Origin: Treponema sp.
GTDB taxonomy: Bacteria > Spirochaetota > Spirochaetia > Treponematales > Breznakiellaceae
Assembly: GCA_031264395.1 (NCBI GenBank)
Contig: JAISEB010000232.1
Location: forward strand, 1-34,329
Reading direction: 5' to 3'
Length of the DNA stretch: 34,329 nt
Within the stretch, counting starts at the first letter, position 1. Every line of letters begins with the position of its first letter. Position numbers and translations under genes: made by a program. The notes under the pieces were generated by a model, which ran no database searches, was not told where the DNA came from, and was given only the letters and a program-made list of their open reading frames with translations. Of the stretch, positions 1 through 8,497 are shown one piece after another.

Positions 1-245
1 CCGGTTCGCCAACATCAGGCGGCGCTTCGGCGGACGGCGCGGAAAGAGGGGGAACCTCGGAAACAATGGGAGCCGTGGGCGCGGAAACAGCGGGAGCCTC
101 AGGCGGCAGTGTACCGGGAACGTCCTGTTCGCCAACATCCGGCAGCGCTTCAACGGACGGCGCGGTAAGAGGGGGAGCCTCGGCAACAGTGGGAGCCGTG
201 GGCGTGGAAACAGCGGGAGCCTCGGGCGCGGAAACAGCGGGAACC
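1..245 (-). repeat. About 123-bp (41-codon) tandem repeat encoding Pro/Ala-rich EAPAVS.PTAP.V.E.PPL.APS.EA.PDVGE units
   Basis: gttcgccaacatc at 4 recurs at 127 in near-identical context. Protein repeats: EAPAVSTPTAPTVAEAPPLTAPSVEALPDVGEQDVPGTLPP and EAPAVSAPTAPIVSEVPPLSAPSAEAPPDVGEP. Copy number is truncated by the window edge. Confidence 0.8.
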
Positions 246-2638
246 GGAGGAGGCGAACCGGAACCGGCGGCTTCCGGGGGTTCTTCGGGGTCGTCGTCAC
301 GGCGGCCTGAAACCGCGGGGGGGACAAGGGCGGCAAGCGCCGGAACTTCGGGAACCGGATCGGGGGCGGCGTCTTCCTCCAGAACCGGGGAAGGCACGAT
401 TATAACCGGAAGATCCACAAGCGGCGCAAAGGCTTCCCCGGGGCTTTCGCCGTCAGATTCGGCGGGCGCGGAGGGGACTACGATGGATACATAAAGGCCC
501 TGCACATCCGCGTCCGCAGCGGGCTCGCTCACGGGAGAAGGGTCCCTGCCGGGAAAACTCCACAGCGTCGTGTCCAGGCGATCCGCCAGAGAATAGGCCC
601 GCCCGCGGGTTTCAAAAAAAGAGGCCAGGTAACCGTATTCACGGGCCAAACCCGGATCACGGCGGCGGAGTTCGGCGTACCAGGAATCGGAAGAGGCAAA
701 ATCATTCAGTTCATAACAGGAACGGGCCATCCCCAAAATGGCGATGCTGTTATCGGGGGCCTGTTCCAGCGCCCGCCCGAAATACCCGAGGCTCTCGGGA
801 AAACGCCGTTCCAGAAAGGCCACATTGCCCAGATTGACCCAGCCATGCAGGTAATCACGCCGGGCGGCGGCAATAAACTGCTCCCGCGCCCTGGCCGTCA
901 TGCCGTACCGTCCGTAGAGTATCCCCAGGCTGTTGCGTACTTCCGGGTCTTCCCCGAGGGCAAGCCGGTTTTCAAGAGAACGGACCTGCGGACGGATCTC
1001 GTATTCAATCCAGGCGTTCATCGAAGAGTCAAAAGCCAGGGACGCCGCGTCCTCACCGGGAAGAACAAAGCGCGACGCCGCGCCGGGAACACTGACGGGG
1101 GGGTAGATCTTCCAGGATTGAGACATGGGATAAAGCCTCGCCTGACCCCGGGCCGCCGAATCGCGCCATTCCTTGGCGCCTATACGCCAGGCCCGGAAAA
1201 ATCCCTCACGGGGAATGGTAATCTCAAGCGGAACCCAGGCTTTCCCCTCATGGTAGACCAGTTCGTCCGGGGCGTAAAAATCCCGCCGGGCTTCTTCTTC
1301 GGTCAAACCCGAATCAAAGGCCATGTAGATATGGCCGGGAATGGTGATAAAGGCGGTCTCTACACCGGCGGCCTCAAGCAGGGAACAAAAAAGTATGGAC
1401 AGATCGTCGCAGTCGCCCCCGCGGTACATCAGGGTCTGGAAAGGATAGTTAAGGCTGTCAAGGCTGGTCGAAGCCGCGGAAAGTTCCACATAGGATGACG
1501 AAGGATCGACGACATAATTGATGCCGTAGACGGCGAGGGTTTCAAAGAGGCCAAGCGCGTACTGAATATTCCGGTTGATGCCCGGCCGCAGGCGGCCCTG
1601 TACCAGCGAAGACACATAGCGGGAAAACCACTGAACCGAGGGGTCCCGGGCCGACACAAAGGAAGCGGCCCGCCTGTCGTCATCCCAGGACATGGCGTTC
1701 CTGTGGTAGACGGGAATATCCATGGGAATTTCCACCCGTTTCGCGGAACCCAGGCTCCGGTATTCGACAATTATTTTCGCGTTTGCGGTAATGTTCTCGA
1801 TAAGCTGAAGCACCGAATCGTTAAAAAAGGCGGTCACCGGTATGTCGGCGGATTCTCCCTTTTTCAAGAGGCGGACGGACCCGCAGAGTTTGGGCTGGTT
1901 CATGTACTGCTCAAGATAGAAGGAGACGTTCACCATGGTAATGTCGGTGGGTTCGTTGTTGGTAACCCGCACCGACGCGAAGGGATTCTCGTTGTACCAG
2001 GCGTATGAAACGGGAAAAACCATTTTTTGATCCGACTTTTCAGCCTTGATCCGGGTTTTCCCCGCTATCATTTCCGAAAGATTCAGGGAAACGCCCACCC
2101 CCACGGTTACATTGTTGAGAAAGGGTGAAGGATTATACGCGTACTGTTTCCAGGCCCCGAAGGCCATAAGCGCCACGGAAGGGACAAGATGCCAGGCGGC
2201 GCTTAACCTTCCGCCGAAGGAAATCCCGGAAATGGAATTCTCGTTCCAGCTTGCCGAATAAAGCCCGCCTGTTACATCCAGCTTCAGGCTGAAACGATCC
2301 ACGGGCCTGTAGGCAAACACCGGGCCGGCGGAGGCGTCAAGAAGCATGACGGATGATCCTGTCCCCCGTACCGGCGCGCTGACCAGTTCCCCGCCAATAG
2401 ACGCGCCGAAAAACGGAAAGAAGCGCCAGTCCAGGGCCGCCGATATGTCGGGCCCCGGGGTAAAATTCCCGTTCTTGAGGGGAATATAGGCGCCCGGATA
2501 CAGGCGGAATTTGATCTCCTGCTCGGAGAACGACTTTGAGGGAAGGGCCAGGGCAAGAAAAGCGGCAAGAAATACCGGGGAAAGGATAGAAGGCCTGAAA
2601 CCCCGGCGGGCCCCCTTCTTCCGTTTCCTTGCAATCAC
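1..2638 (-). CDS. Predicted outer-membrane beta-barrel / transglutaminase-like / TPR protein with Pro-Ala-rich repeat tail (partial, C-terminus beyond window)
   Basis: Open minus-strand frame from GTG at 2638 to the window edge, absent from the ORF track because no stop is in view. Starts VIARKRKKGARRGFRPSILSPVFLAAFLALALPSKSFS (signal peptide-like), then a glycine/aromatic alternating barrel-like region, transglutaminase-like motif NYPFQTLMYRGGDCDDLSILFCSLLEAAGVETAFITIPGHIYMAF...WVPLEIT, TPR-like repeats (SLGYFGRALEQAPDNSIAILGMARSCYEL), and a Pro/Ala-rich tail. SD-like GGAG upstream. Confidence 0.8.
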   Translation of the reverse strand, partial: MIARKRKKGARRGFRPSILSPVFLAAFLALALPSKSFSEQEIKFRLYPGAYIPLKNGNFTPGPDISAALDWRFFPFFGASIGGELVSAPVRGTGSSVMLLDASAGPVFAYRPVDRFSLKLDVTGGLYSASWNENSISGISFGGRLSAAWHLVPSVALMAFGAWKQYAYNPSPFLNNVTVGVGVSLNLSEMIAGKTRIKAEKSDQKMVFPVSYAWYNENPFASVRVTNNEPTDITMVNVSFYLEQYMNQPKLCGSVRLLKKGESADIPVTAFFNDSVLQLIENITANAKIIVEYRSLGSAKRVEIPMDIPVYHRNAMSWDDDRRAASFVSARDPSVQWFSRYVSSLVQGRLRPGINRNIQYALGLFETLAVYGINYVVDPSSSYVELSAASTSLDSLNYPFQTLMYRGGDCDDLSILFCSLLEAAGVETAFITIPGHIYMAFDSGLTEEEARRDFYAPDELVYHEGKAWVPLEITIPREGFFRAWRIGAKEWRDSAARGQARLYPMSQSWKIYPPVSVPGAASRFVLPGEDAASLAFDSSMNAWIEYEIRPQVRSLENRLALGEDPEVRNSLGILYGRYGMTARAREQFIAAARRDYLHGWVNLGNVAFLERRFPESLGYFGRALEQAPDNSIAILGMARSCYELNDFASSDSWYAELRRRDPGLAREYGYLASFFETRGRAYSLADRLDTTLWSFPGRDPSPVSEPAADADVQGLYVSIVVPSAPAESDGESPGEAFAPLVDLPVIIVPSPVLEEDAAPDPVPEVPALAALVPPAVSGRRDDDPEEPPEAAGSGSPPPVPAVSAPEAPAVSTPTAPTVAEAPPLTAPSVEALPDVGEQDVPGTLPPEAPAVSAPTAPIVSEVPPLSAPSAEAPPDVGEP

Positions 2639-2641
2639 CGC

Positions 2642-4588
2642 CTACTCCGGCCGGTTAAGGGCTATCCGGTTAAGCCCGCTCACGGCGATCCTGTTACCGG
2701 GATCGGCCGTCAGCGCCATGCCGAACCAGTTTTCGGCGGCGGTAAAATCGTTTTCCATCACGGCAAGATTCCCCAGATTCGCCATCGCCGCGACCGAACC
2801 CATTGCCGCGGATCGCCGGTATTCGGCCTTCGCCTCGCCGTACATGCCGGAGCGGACATAAAGAAGACCCAGCCGGTTATACCGGTCCACCGAACCGCCG
2901 TAAACGCGAATATCATCAAGGGCGGCCTGGATCTTCGGTCCCATTTCAGAGGCGATGTACCGCACCATGCTTGTCTCGGCAAGGCTCACCACATTGGCTT
3001 CAAGCGGCTTGTCAATCTGGGCCTCCTGGGTATTCAGGACCGCCGGAGGATACCTCTGCCATGCGTCGGCGAGAACAACCAGATTCAGATTGGAACCGGC
3101 CGCAAGCACGGCGTTTATTTCCCGCGCCGCCGTATACCAGTTGTTGAAAAAACCGTCCCGGAAGGCGCTGAACGCCACGGGCATCCAGACTTCCCCGTCC
3201 TTGACAAGGAGGTTCTCCATTCCCCCAAAGAAATTTTGGGCCGTCTCTTCGTCAATATCAAGGGAAAACGCCACGGCAAAATCGCCTTCAAGGGGGATAA
3301 GCGCGGTCTTGATCCCCGCCGCTTCAAGGCAGGCGGCATAGAGGAGCCCCACGTCGTCCACATCGCCCGAGCGGTAGGCCAGGGTTTGAAAGGGAAACTG
3401 GATATAATCTATACGTGAAGGGGAAAGGTACACTTCCGAGAAGGGAGTGCCGGCGTCGGGGGCGCAGATGATATTCCCCGCCCGCAGCCCCTCATAGAGG
3501 AACACGGCAAACTGCATGTTCCGGTTAAGGGCGGTCCTCAGGTGATTACGGGAAAATCCGACGATATACTTTGAAAAATCCAGCACCTCAGGCGCGGTTG
3601 GGGATACGAAAACGGCCAGCGCCGAAGGATCGCTCCAGCGGAAACTGTTCCGGTTATAGACCTCCACAAGGGCGGCGCTGTTCACCGTCCGCGTCGATCC
3701 CAACAGTTCGTACTGTATGATCACTTCCCCCGGAATCCTGCCGTCCTCGGAAAAGTTGAGAATTGACCGTGAAAAATCGGCGTACAGGGGAACCTCCGCC
3801 GTCCGGTGTTTTCCAAGGCGGGAGACGGTTCCGCATAACATTCCCGAGGAAGTGTAGTTTCCGGCCCTGAAACTGACGGTAATATTGCGTATTTCCGCCG
3901 ACTCGTCGTTGGTTATATGCAGCACGCCTATCTGGTTCTGCCGGTAAAGCCCCGAAAATACGGGAAACACCGGTTCGCTTTGCCGCAGGGCAACCTGTAA
4001 CCCGTTCCCCTTGCTCCCGGTTTCAAAGGATATTTGAACCGTAAGCCCCACATAAATGCCTTCGTAGACAGGCTCGCCCGGTTTGTAGGCGTACTGCCTG
4101 AATCCTCCCCCGGCCGAAAGGGTAAACAGGGGGGAAAAACGGAACCCCGCCTCGCCGCCGGCGCGCCAATAGGCGTTCGAATAAGTTACACGGCCGCCCT
4201 GCCCGTCAAAAGCGGCCTGATAAAAGCCGAAACTCCCGCCGGCGCGCAGATTGAGCTGGGACAAAGGATAATAGAACAGGCTGAGCCCTATACCCCCCGA
4301 CAAAAAATTCGGGCTTCCTTCCGCCTTGTTGAGGGAACTGATGCCGAAACCAAATTCCGGGCCGACCGAATAGCCGAGATCCAGAGGATTGCGGAGGATG
4401 CTGGATATATCCACGTCAAAAACGGCGTCCGCGCCGCCCCCAATACCAAAAAGCTCCGTGCTTTTTGACGAAGGGAAACTCATATACGGCTTGGCCCTGA
4501 CGCTGAAATCAACGGCAAAAAGACAGAAAGCGCCTTTTACAAGCAAGAAAATTACTGGAAAAACCCTGCTATAGAGCGGCGCCCTCAT
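2642..4588 (-). CDS. Paralogous beta-barrel / degenerate transglutaminase-like / TPR protein
   Basis: Frame of ORF 2642..4666, but that ORF runs into the tRNA, so the likely start is ATG at 4588 (MRAPLYSRVFPVIFLLVKGAFCLFAVDFSVRAKPYMSF, signal peptide-like). Same order of regions as the neighbouring CDS; transglutaminase region reads QFPFQTLAYRSGDVDDVGLLYAACLEAAGIKTALIPLEGDFAVAF...WMPVAFS, followed by TPRs. Confidence 0.8.
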   Translation of the reverse strand: MRAPLYSRVFPVIFLLVKGAFCLFAVDFSVRAKPYMSFPSSKSTELFGIGGGADAVFDVDISSILRNPLDLGYSVGPEFGFGISSLNKAEGSPNFLSGGIGLSLFYYPLSQLNLRAGGSFGFYQAAFDGQGGRVTYSNAYWRAGGEAGFRFSPLFTLSAGGGFRQYAYKPGEPVYEGIYVGLTVQISFETGSKGNGLQVALRQSEPVFPVFSGLYRQNQIGVLHITNDESAEIRNITVSFRAGNYTSSGMLCGTVSRLGKHRTAEVPLYADFSRSILNFSEDGRIPGEVIIQYELLGSTRTVNSAALVEVYNRNSFRWSDPSALAVFVSPTAPEVLDFSKYIVGFSRNHLRTALNRNMQFAVFLYEGLRAGNIICAPDAGTPFSEVYLSPSRIDYIQFPFQTLAYRSGDVDDVGLLYAACLEAAGIKTALIPLEGDFAVAFSLDIDEETAQNFFGGMENLLVKDGEVWMPVAFSAFRDGFFNNWYTAAREINAVLAAGSNLNLVVLADAWQRYPPAVLNTQEAQIDKPLEANVVSLAETSMVRYIASEMGPKIQAALDDIRVYGGSVDRYNRLGLLYVRSGMYGEAKAEYRRSAAMGSVAAMANLGNLAVMENDFTAAENWFGMALTADPGNRIAVSGLNRIALNRPE

Positions 4589-4608
4589 TATCAAGTTTTT
4601 ACCCTTTT

Positions 4609-4681
4609 TGCCGCCAAAGAGAATCGAACTCTTGACACAAGGATTTTCAGTCCTTTGCTCTACCAACTGAGCTACAGCGGC
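4609..4681 (-). tRNA. tRNA-Phe (GAA anticodon)
   Basis: Reverse complement GCCGCTGTAGCTCAGTTGGTAGAGCAAAGGACTGAAAATCCTTGTGTCAAGAGTTCGATTCTCTTTGGCGGCA folds as a cloverleaf: 7-bp acceptor with G.T pairs, GTTCGATTC T-loop, anticodon GAA, discriminator A, no encoded CCA. Confidence 0.95.
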
Positions 4682-4731
4682 AAACTTTCCGCATAACGCA
4701 CAGACGCGTAACGCGGCGTGAAACCACTATA

Positions 4732-5439: not shown

Positions 5440-5769
5440 TTATCCGGAAATGTCCACGTTTCTGCCCAGCGCCGGATCGCGGATCACCTGGCGATCCTCT
5501 TCCGTTCCGGCTTCCTCCCCGTCTTTGCCGCGTTCTTCCTTCCCCTCCTCCCCGTTTTTCTTCCGCCTGCTCCTGTCGTTTACGCGCTCCGCTTCCCCCT
5601 CGTTCTGCGCCTCGTTGACTTCCTGTATGTGCTCTTCGGTTTTTTTCTGAATCTCCGCTCCCTGAATGGCCTGCTGAATGGCAAGTCCTTCCCTCTGGGC
5701 GGCCTGGTTCTTCGCCACCTTGTCAAGCTGGGTAAAAAGAGTTTGAAGATCAATTGGCTGTATAGCCAT
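5440..5769 (-). CDS. Small charged hypothetical protein
   Basis: 109 aa ORF MAIQPIDLQTLFTQLDKVAKNQAAQREG...; overlaps the end of the upstream CDS by 20 bp and fits the gene array. Confidence 0.7.
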   Translation of the reverse strand: MAIQPIDLQTLFTQLDKVAKNQAAQREGLAIQQAIQGAEIQKKTEEHIQEVNEAQNEGEAERVNDRSRRKKNGEEGKEERGKDGEEAGTEEDRQVIRDPALGRNVDISG

Positions 5770-7711
5770 CGGGACCCTTCTTTATGCTTTCGTCGGGCTC
5801 CTCATACTTGGTCACCCTTATCAGCCCGTTTTCAAGAATAAAGGTAACCGCGCGGTATTCGGTACGCACGTCGTCCCTGGCGTCGCGGATAAGGATCTTT
5901 ACGCCGGGATACACCTTGGACGAGGCGGAGACCTTTCCCCTGGTCTTAAGGGTGTTAAGGAATTCCTGCACCTTCTGTATGCCCTCGCCGGCCTTTTTTA
6001 TGTCGCCCATAAGGAACTGCCGCTTGTCCATGAGTTCCTTCATGTAGGCTTCCTTGTCCTCCGGCAGGGACTTCCGCTGTTTCTTGATGTTGATGAGGGT
6101 CTGCAGGTTAAGCTGCGTTTCTTCAAGCTGTTTTTCCGCCGTTTCCTTTGCCGCGGTGAGCTTTTCAAGCTCCTCTTTGCTTTTGGGATCAAAGCCTACC
6201 TCAAAGATCGTTTCGGTGCCGCTCGTGGCGCTGCCGAGAACCTTCGCGTTGATCTCCTCGGAGGCGCGCAGGCGTCCGCCGACTATGTGGGCCTTTTTAC
6301 CCTGGCAGATGATCCGTTTGAAGGCGTCAACCTGGGAATTGATGATGCCGTCCGAGACCACAACCATGTTCCCCGCCTCAACGACGGCATTCTCGATAAA
6401 GCGCGCCCAGATGGACCTTCCCGCGCGGACAAGGCCCCCGCTCTTTCCGGTGATCCCCTGATGAACGATGATGTCCCCTTCGGCGTCAAGCACGGCCTTT
6501 TCCACGGTACCGTTCACTTCGATGTTACCGGCGGCCTTGACCGAAAAACCGTCTTCCACGTTCCCGGTAATGATGACCGTGCCAAGAAATATGATGTTTC
6601 CCGTTTTCAGGTTTACGTCCCCCTGAACGGTGTACACGGGTTCGACGTTTATCTTGCCGCCCACCACCACAACCTGGCCGTTAATGTCCGCGATGATGGT
6701 GACCCCGTCTTCGCCGACATGCACGTTCTTCCCCACAGGCAGGTTCGTTTCCTTTCCGTTTTTGGCCGGAATAACCTTGCCGGTAACGGTCCGGCCAACC
6801 GTTCCGTTTTCGGCGGGTATCTTCTTTGCCAGCGGCTGGTTTTCCACCACGTTCTGAATGATGTTAAGTTCCTTGAAATCCACCCGGCCGTTGCTTCCTT
6901 CCCGGAGCCGGACCTTGGTCTGATCGGTTTCAAAGTTGTACTGAATGTAAGCATCCCTCCCGTCGACAGGACGGCTTCCTTCGGCGACAAGAACGGGTTC
7001 CCGGTAGACGGGCTTGTCGGCAAAATCACGGAGAAATTCCTCATTGACGCCGTACATGACCCTGTTGTTTCTAAGGAACGAAAGATAGGTTTCCACCGAA
7101 AGATCGCAGCCGCCCGTGCCGGGGGGCGTTACCCGCACGAACGCCTTCATTTCCCCTTCGGGTATCTCGACGCTTACGATGCTGTCGTTTACCGGACGAT
7201 GCTGAAAATCACCGGCCCTGAAGTACGTCCCCGCCGCTTCCCGGACCATTCTGGCAACCTGCGCCGTGTCTATGTTTTCAACGCCCCGGTCCTGCAGAGC
7301 CTGTACCGCGGCGGTGTCCGTTACCCGCCTGCCCCGGCCTTTGGGGGAAACCACCTTGAGGAAGGCGCCGTCGGCGCTGAGGTGAACAAAGGCATCCCCG
7401 TCCCTGTCCTCGATAACCGGAGCGCTTTCTTCCGCGCCGTCCCCGGACAGATCGCCCCCGCCCTTTTTTTTCCCTGTGTACAGGCGTTCGTAGGCCCGTA
7501 TTGCCCAGTCTTTTTTTCCCGTTCCCAGAAAGCCCGCGGCCCCCCGTTCGGAAATCTCGTATTCAAGCCGCCTCACGGGAACGTCAAGAAGGGTGGACGC
7601 TTCGGCGACGGCCTGTTCCAGCGTGGGCCCTCTGGCCTCGACGATGCGTACGGCGCGGTCATGATCCAACTGTTCCTTGACGATATGCTGCAGCCGGACA
7701 AAGTCTACCAT
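5750..7711 (-). CDS. DUF342/FapA-type protein with N-terminal Jag_N-like domain
   Basis: 653 aa; N-term VEARGPTLEQAVAEASTLLDVPVRRLEYEISERGAAGFLGTGKKDWAIRAY (Jag_N-like); central beta-helical GTVIITGNVEDGFSVKAAGNIEVNGTVEKAVLDAEGDIIVHQGITGK; C-terminal coiled coil. Confidence 0.85.
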   Translation of the reverse strand: MVDFVRLQHIVKEQLDHDRAVRIVEARGPTLEQAVAEASTLLDVPVRRLEYEISERGAAGFLGTGKKDWAIRAYERLYTGKKKGGGDLSGDGAEESAPVIEDRDGDAFVHLSADGAFLKVVSPKGRGRRVTDTAAVQALQDRGVENIDTAQVARMVREAAGTYFRAGDFQHRPVNDSIVSVEIPEGEMKAFVRVTPPGTGGCDLSVETYLSFLRNNRVMYGVNEEFLRDFADKPVYREPVLVAEGSRPVDGRDAYIQYNFETDQTKVRLREGSNGRVDFKELNIIQNVVENQPLAKKIPAENGTVGRTVTGKVIPAKNGKETNLPVGKNVHVGEDGVTIIADINGQVVVVGGKINVEPVYTVQGDVNLKTGNIIFLGTVIITGNVEDGFSVKAAGNIEVNGTVEKAVLDAEGDIIVHQGITGKSGGLVRAGRSIWARFIENAVVEAGNMVVVSDGIINSQVDAFKRIICQGKKAHIVGGRLRASEEINAKVLGSATSGTETIFEVGFDPKSKEELEKLTAAKETAEKQLEETQLNLQTLINIKKQRKSLPEDKEAYMKELMDKRQFLMGDIKKAGEGIQKVQEFLNTLKTRGKVSASSKVYPGVKILIRDARDDVRTEYRAVTFILENGLIRVTKYEEPDESIKKGPDGYTAN

Positions 7712-7714
7712 GGC

Positions 7715-8497
7715 CTATACAATGCCTTTTCGTATATTGGTCAGTTTTGACCGGAGCCGGAGTATGGCCTTGGTGTGCAGCTGGGACACCCGCGACTCGG
7801 TTACTTCCAGCACCTGGCCTATCTCCTTGAGGGTAAGATCCTCGTAATAGTAGAGCACGAGGATCTTCTTTTCCTTGTCGGGCAGTTCGTTGATGGCGTC
7901 GATAATTACCCGCTTGATCTCGCCCTTTTCCACCATGACGTCGGGATTGAGGCTGGAAGGGGATTCGATGCTGTCAATGATGGACACCTTGTCGTTTTCG
8001 TCCCCGGAATACCACACGTCGTCAATGGAGATGATCGACGTTACGGAGATTTTCTGGATGGTCTTGATGTACTCTTCCTCGTTCATGCCAAGGGAACCGG
8101 CTATTTCCTGATCGGTCGCCGTTCTTCCAAGCTGGGCTTCAAGCGATCCTATGGCGTCCTCAACTTCACGGGTTTTCTGGCGCACGGAACGGGGAACCCA
8201 GTCTATGGAGCGCAGTTCGTCAAAAATCGCCCCCCGTATACGGGTAACCGCGTATGTTTTGAATTTTACCTGTTTTTCGGGATCGAATTTGTCAATGGCG
8301 TCGATAAGGCCGAACACGCCGAAGCCTACAAGATCGTCGAATTCCACATTATGGGGCATGCCCATGGCGACCTTGCCGGCCACATATTTTACAAGCGGGG
8401 CGTATTGTTTAATAAAGGCTTCCCGAATCGCCGGATCTCCCGTTCTACGGTACTCCAGCCAAAGTTCCTCTTCTGTTCTTTGCTCAGGAAGCGGCAT
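7715..8497 (-). CDS. fliA: RNA polymerase sigma factor FliA/WhiG family (sigma-28)
   Basis: 260 aa with sigma region 2 ([53 protein letters not shown]) and region 4 ([48 protein letters not shown]). Confidence 0.95.

Follow-up and report, generated by a model that had tools for sequence, protein, structure and literature searches.

A catalytically depleted transglutaminase-like protein retained beside its intact paralog in treponemes: a candidate partner in an envelope system with giant Ig-repeat lipoproteins

Two adjacent genes at the start of a Treponema contig encode proteins of similar layout, of which one carries a full set of catalytic-type residues in a transglutaminase-like domain and the other none. 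Is the second gene a dying duplicate, or has it been kept as a non-catalytic partner of the first, as an earlier sequence-only reading proposed? The DNA analysed here (the window, 34,329 nucleotides) starts at base 1 of contig C64 in a 2.9-Mb draft genome, and the distal gene, D, is incomplete because the window begins there. Full-length D in the closest relative, 97% identical, is 1,174 aa long, and its spacer ends in a transmembrane helix followed by RRKKNNNR. The proximal gene, P, reads from an ATG at 4588 to a stop at 2642; an alternative TTG start at 4666, given by the ORF program, falls within the upstream tRNA-Phe gene (4608-4682). The features are as follows.

2642..4588, minus strand: gene P (proximal), pseudo-transglutaminase of 648 aa, laid out as signal peptide, 8-strand barrel, Ig-like domain, transglutaminase-like domain and TPRs (codon check, homologs, AlphaFold2, Foldseek)
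4514..4588, minus strand: P signal peptide, about residues 1-25 (sequence; start of the mature part conserved in alignment A3)
4022..4510, minus strand: P predicted 8-stranded OmpA-like barrel (AlphaFold2 strands; Foldseek to OmpA/NspA)
3638..4000, minus strand: P Ig-like domain (AlphaFold2)
3053..3628, minus strand: P transglutaminase-like domain without catalytic residues (AlphaFold2; Foldseek to human TG3 and factor XIII)
3359..3361, minus strand: P Cys-site codon, Val (GTG) (codon check)
3281..3283, minus strand: P His-site codon, Asp, in GDFAVAF (codon check)
3173..3175, minus strand: P Glu-site codon, Ala (GCG) (codon check)
2654..3001, minus strand: P TPR region (Pfam, AlphaFold2)
2..2638, minus strand: gene D (distal), putative transglutaminase-like enzyme with a Cys-His-Glu site, truncated where the contig ends
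2081..2518, minus strand: D predicted 8-stranded OmpA-like barrel (AlphaFold2, Foldseek)
1688..2050, minus strand: D Ig-like domain (AlphaFold2)
1106..1678, minus strand: D transglutaminase-like domain (Pfam, AlphaFold2)
1409..1411, minus strand: D catalytic-type Cys (TGC) (codon check, homologs)
1331..1333, minus strand: D catalytic-type His (CAT) (codon check, homologs)
1223..1225, minus strand: D catalytic-type Glu (GAG) (codon check, homologs)
641..1054, minus strand: D TPR region (Pfam, AlphaFold2)
2..550, minus strand: D Pro/Ala-rich spacer, incomplete in the window
4608..4682, minus strand: tRNA-Phe gene on the 5' side of P, at which synteny with the closest relative ends

The DNA match to the closest relative (95% identity) and to genome G002 (86%) begins exactly at the tRNA-Phe gene and covers both P and D (window 4608-4683). 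On the 5' side of the tRNA gene lies a flagellar gene cluster in the window, as against acetyl-CoA carboxylase genes in the closest relative; the tRNA gene thus marks either a break in synteny or the border of a segment that is mobile or has been rearranged. The flagellar cluster includes a FapA-type protein with an N-terminal Jag_N domain (5750-7711). The D spacer contains 24-base and 123-base tandem repeats (4-246) whose length is likely to vary between strains and which are likely to break assemblies. The window's own genome has a second P gene, about 39% identical to P, near the end of contig C110 (L039 829-2907).

P and D are tandem paralogs of one layout, as had been claimed: D aligns with P at 31% identity over 556 columns (BLASTP, E = 3e-84), and the domains are recovered by AlphaFold2 and partly by Pfam. 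We modelled each protein singly from an alignment of its own orthologs (76 rows for D, 63 for P), with mean pLDDT values of 92.7 for D and 91.6 for P. The two models are alike and contain both the anticipated barrel and the transglutaminase fold: eight long strands are followed by an Ig-like sandwich, then by an alpha/beta domain of mixed type that holds the Cys/His/Glu positions of D or the Val/Asp/Ala positions of P, and last by TPR helices. In Foldseek searches, the N-termini of both models matched OmpA (1bxw) and NspA (1p4t) with TM-scores by target of 0.65-0.75, and the central domain of the P model matched human transglutaminase 3 (TG3) and factor XIII with probabilities of 0.93-0.99. 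Transglutaminases were absent from the top 50 Foldseek rows for the D model; we assign D this fold because it aligns with P throughout, and from Pfam, in which it scores 23.5 bits for Transglut_core (PF01841) in the genome search and 19.8 in hmmscan, with a cut-off of 23. At E ≤ 0.01 the same profile matched 35 of 76 D members and 3 of 63 P members; since the sequence of P scarcely matches it, fold retention in P is established apart from D. TPR-family matches were found in both proteins (Pfam), and a sequence search of solved structures gave just TPR-type matches among the matches listed. The OmpA-like barrels place both proteins, by prediction, in the outer membrane.

The three D codons of the sequence-only reading proved correct, as did the Val and Ala codons of P. 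Its Asp codon was misplaced: 3291-3293 reads Pro (CCT), and the Asp is the second codon of GDFAVAF (3266-3286), that is, 3281-3283. A search of 99 related genomes together with one named scan yielded 221 distinct family members in three groups: P, the D genes paired with P (partner D), and the remaining D-like genes (Ds). The complete set of Cys, His and Glu was kept in 134/134 scorable D-type genes (87/87 partner D and 47/47 Ds, all positions aligned), a Cys-His-Glu version of the Cys-His-Asp/Glu triad. Among 81 scorable P genes, by contrast, 75 lacked all three residues and six had the Cys only; none had His or Glu. The behaviour of these homologs excludes chance as the source of the residue contrast, and the codons, AlphaFold2 and Foldseek agree that P has lost all three positions with its fold intact, as expected of a pseudoenzyme. 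In a tree built with the catalytic columns masked, P formed a single clade on one side of one branch (SH-aLRT 100), sister to the partner-D clade (support 87). These sequences indicate a single, ancient loss of the catalytic residues in P, after which the gene was retained. Two irregular frames were also met: one D gene ends early, after the His and before the Glu, beside an open P frame (L063 2627-3985), and an 8,256-aa open frame matches D residues 206-410 only, from the Ig-like region up to the Cys (G079:C6:24000-24614).

The active/inactive pair is conserved in relatives: where a locus is long enough for a judgement, P almost always comes with an intact D. Among 84 partner D genes, P lies directly upstream on the same strand in 69 and upstream with 0.4-3.2 kb between in six, and nine D genes are cut by a contig end, with no locus against the pairing; such linkage counts, like the tree agreement and co-occurrence given below, ignore kinship and in part reflect common ancestry. 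Within the genomes searched, P is confined to four families of the window's order and was not found in the sampled small (1.1 Mb) genomes or the 2.8-Mb f3 genomes; D-like genes unaccompanied by P occur across the phylum. With dN/dS of 0.15-0.24, P is under purifying selection, as is D (0.12-0.20). The intact fold, purifying selection, single origin and constant absence of His and Glu support the proposal of a retained non-catalytic partner, and P may act as a scaffold or regulator of D. One genome (G042) carries five P-D pairs, two of them near-identical in both genes, and two rumen Treponema genomes have two consecutive P-type frames before D (L123 4587-7709, L124 2419-4361). In genome G032, two genes lie between P and D: one encodes CHASE2 plus a nucleotide cyclase, and the other, which has no Pfam match, we take to be FecR-like. 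Genes of both kinds stand between P and D in some termite-group genomes (L063 3989-7083, L099 4193-7242), and related cyclase genes lie directly upstream of D in L068 and L158.

A third gene, missed by the sequence-only reading because the contig ends, commonly adjoins the pair. In the closest relative, D ends at 7880 and a 2,645-aa open frame with a lipoprotein-type start follows at 8034. Homologous lipoprotein genes adjoin P-D in 38 loci, in 33 of them directly downstream of D and in the others upstream of P; their products share an N-terminal domain after the Cys (alignment A4) and Big-type Ig domains, the largest reaching 4,667 aa in T. ruminis. The lipoprotein domain occurs in 52/295 genomes of the order, 48 of which also have P, and P occurs in 58/295 (odds ratio 280, kinship ignored). 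P was present without a detected lipoprotein in ten genomes, several of them fragmented, and the lipoprotein without P in four. When linkage was counted for the 34 best-scoring lipoprotein hits, 26 lay on a P-bearing contig, in every case on the strand of P and no more than 10.3 kb away. The gene was not seen in the window's own genome, which fits the contig break and leaves its presence there unproven. The P-D pair thus usually lies beside a gene for an Ig-like surface lipoprotein, and this arrangement suggests a system, so far undescribed, for modifying or releasing that protein.

Our preferred reading, in which we infer the complex, its chemistry and its substrate, is that P and D form an outer-membrane complex whose target is the lipoprotein of the cluster, with P as its non-catalytic member; we give it an even chance. 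P and D would each be anchored in the outer membrane by an OmpA-like barrel, with their Ig-like, transglutaminase-like and TPR domains in the periplasm. Judged by its residues, D would be an enzyme, a thiol hydrolase or a transamidase with a Cys-His-Glu site. P, lacking a working active site, would be its non-catalytic subunit, using an intact fold and TPRs to bind D, the substrate or both, and could activate, position or restrain D. The likeliest substrate would be the same-cluster Ig-like lipoprotein, to be cleaved or covalently attached; sequence cannot tell cleavage from crosslinking, and D may perform either. By way of long spacers with SPOR, LysM or transmembrane ends, many D proteins would be fastened to peptidoglycan or to the inner membrane. 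More tentatively, and with rather more doubt than belief, we consider that the pair could represent a novel kind of envelope machine in spirochaetes: a heteromer of enzyme and pseudoenzyme in the outer membrane, dedicated to Ig-repeat lipoproteins of 2,500-5,000 aa, which would be cleaved or covalently fixed, in some lineages under nucleotide-cyclase control.

The ends of D bear on another account, by which P and D are mainly structural OmpA-like tethers, the transglutaminase domain of D has peptidoglycan as its target or serves to attach D, and the lipoprotein is co-expressed surface cargo only. The C-termini of D are interchangeable: some carry SPOR or LysM, others (those of the window's genus and T. 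bryantii among them) a transmembrane helix and a basic tail, and others no additional domain. SPOR and LysM are peptidoglycan binders in known proteins, and these ends, the transmembrane-plus-basic ends of many other D proteins, the long Pro-rich spacers and the OmpA-like barrels would all suit a tether. However, about 15 D proteins stop after the transglutaminase domain with no anchor at all, Cys-His-Glu is strictly conserved in D, and the lipoprotein is both linked to and co-occurring with P. We regard tethering as an unlikely main function, and as the best placed of the alternatives. Several D C-terminal regions, including one that we take from its sequence to be LamG-like, had no Pfam match. 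TPRs are kept by P in 74/75 pairs and absent from D in 15, all of them pairs with a TPR-bearing P; since P keeps TPRs where D has none, they can evidently be left to P. The D tail of the closest relative matches LPXTG_anchor (18.1 versus 15.9 bits), but no sortase was found in seven genomes, the window's own included; we therefore rejected D as a sortase substrate and read this tail as an inner-membrane anchor. An anti-phage role was also rejected, because matches to NF058533 were weak (19.9 versus a cut-off of 1500) and PADLOC found nothing.

Alternatively, P might have a role of its own, as receptor, anchor or chaperone of the lipoprotein, and make no contact with D, the pair being held together by operon co-expression alone. 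P has retained its TPRs and barrel, six pairs are split by other genes, and the P-D contact is something that we infer, all of which would be compatible with independence. Yet the order and adjacency of the two genes are fixed over four families, they have been duplicated jointly in one genome (L045/L047), and their trees match (r = 0.88 between tree distances versus 0.12 for the best of 1000 shuffles, much of which is expected from shared descent). Such independence ranks second among the alternatives, and we hold it to be improbable.

The residues that replace the triad raise the question of a different catalytic site. At the His site, 79 of 82 P proteins have an acidic residue (Asp in 65, Glu in 14), the Glu site is chiefly Ser or Ala, and the Cys site is varied (V, S, K, A, R, I, Y, L, with Cys in six). 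Since the Cys-bearing P genes are scattered on the tree (four changes), the Cys site appears to have drifted while the acidic His site was held; the alignment thus identifies His to Asp/Glu as the constrained change in P. P could then be an enzyme whose active site has shifted or changed, in the manner of the microbial transglutaminases that have Asp/Glu for His, among which Cys-Asp-His and Cys-Glu sites are documented (PMC10318531). But most P proteins have no usable nucleophile (V, A, K, L, I, R) and the Cys-bearing ones lie among Cys-less relatives, which makes this reading very improbable. A reading of P as a duplicate in decay, or as a product of bad assembly, might be suggested by the lost residues alone and the early stop in one D (L063), but it has practically no chance of being right: P is not decaying, its frames being open in dozens of genomes, with the homolog residues, dN/dS and pLDDT given above.

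The proposed partnership of P and D joins parts and a principle that are already known. We found no description of the family in the literature searched, and a study of bovine and human treponemes (PMC8049484) never mentions transglutaminase. D shares its fold and the motif order GDCDD...H...E with the Transglut_core (PF01841)/papain-like superfamily; it differs in having Glu third, in its near-cut-off scores and in its fusion to an outer-membrane barrel and TPRs. EPB42, FBXO21 and CC2D2A are inactive transglutaminase-fold proteins used as scaffolds or adaptors (PMC10318531). Like P, they have the fold without catalysis; unlike P, they are eukaryotic and are not outer-membrane proteins. None of them is known to form a fixed tandem with an active paralog. 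A dead paralog activates its live twin in the trypanosome prozyme/AdoMetDC pair (PMC5201418) and in FAM20A/FAM20C (PMC10211241); the folds there are others, and contact is proven there and presumed for P-D.

In LapG/LapD/LapA and Dvh, a periplasmic papain/transglutaminase-like protease acts on a giant surface protein of the same cluster (PMC13090378). Some termite-group P-D loci likewise hold a nucleotide-cyclase gene, but the large protein of the P-D cluster is a lipoprotein, the window's D had no LapG-family (PF06035) match at E ≤ 0.1, and no LapD-like gene was among the recurrent neighbours of P-D. LapG itself is not known to have a barrel or a dead twin. Slam surface-lipoprotein exporters also combine an outer-membrane barrel and TPRs beside surface lipoproteins (PMC5449769). 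In both of our models, unlike Slam, the barrel is 8-stranded, N-terminal and joined to a transglutaminase domain, and TPR_Slam matches were weak, below cut-off. The Slam barrel is 14-stranded and C-terminal, after N-terminal TPRs. OmpA resembles P and D in its 8-stranded barrel and in a periplasmic C-terminal part reaching peptidoglycan; P and D instead carry an enzyme or pseudoenzyme domain, and their anchor is SPOR, LysM or transmembrane rather than the OmpA domain. The barrel, transglutaminase fold and TPRs as a fixed live/dead pair beside giant lipoproteins were not found elsewhere. The pair is linked to giant surface lipoproteins of gut and rumen treponemes, a family so far uncharacterised, with cultured carriers in T. 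bryantii, T. ruminis and T. zioleckii. Some 80 pairs, in which D has or lacks TPRs and has varied anchors, form a natural series for asking how a live transglutaminase might be served by a dead one. The best-known enzyme/pseudoenzyme pairs are eukaryotic; P and D are a bacterial example, long fixed as adjacent genes and, by prediction, sited in the outer membrane.
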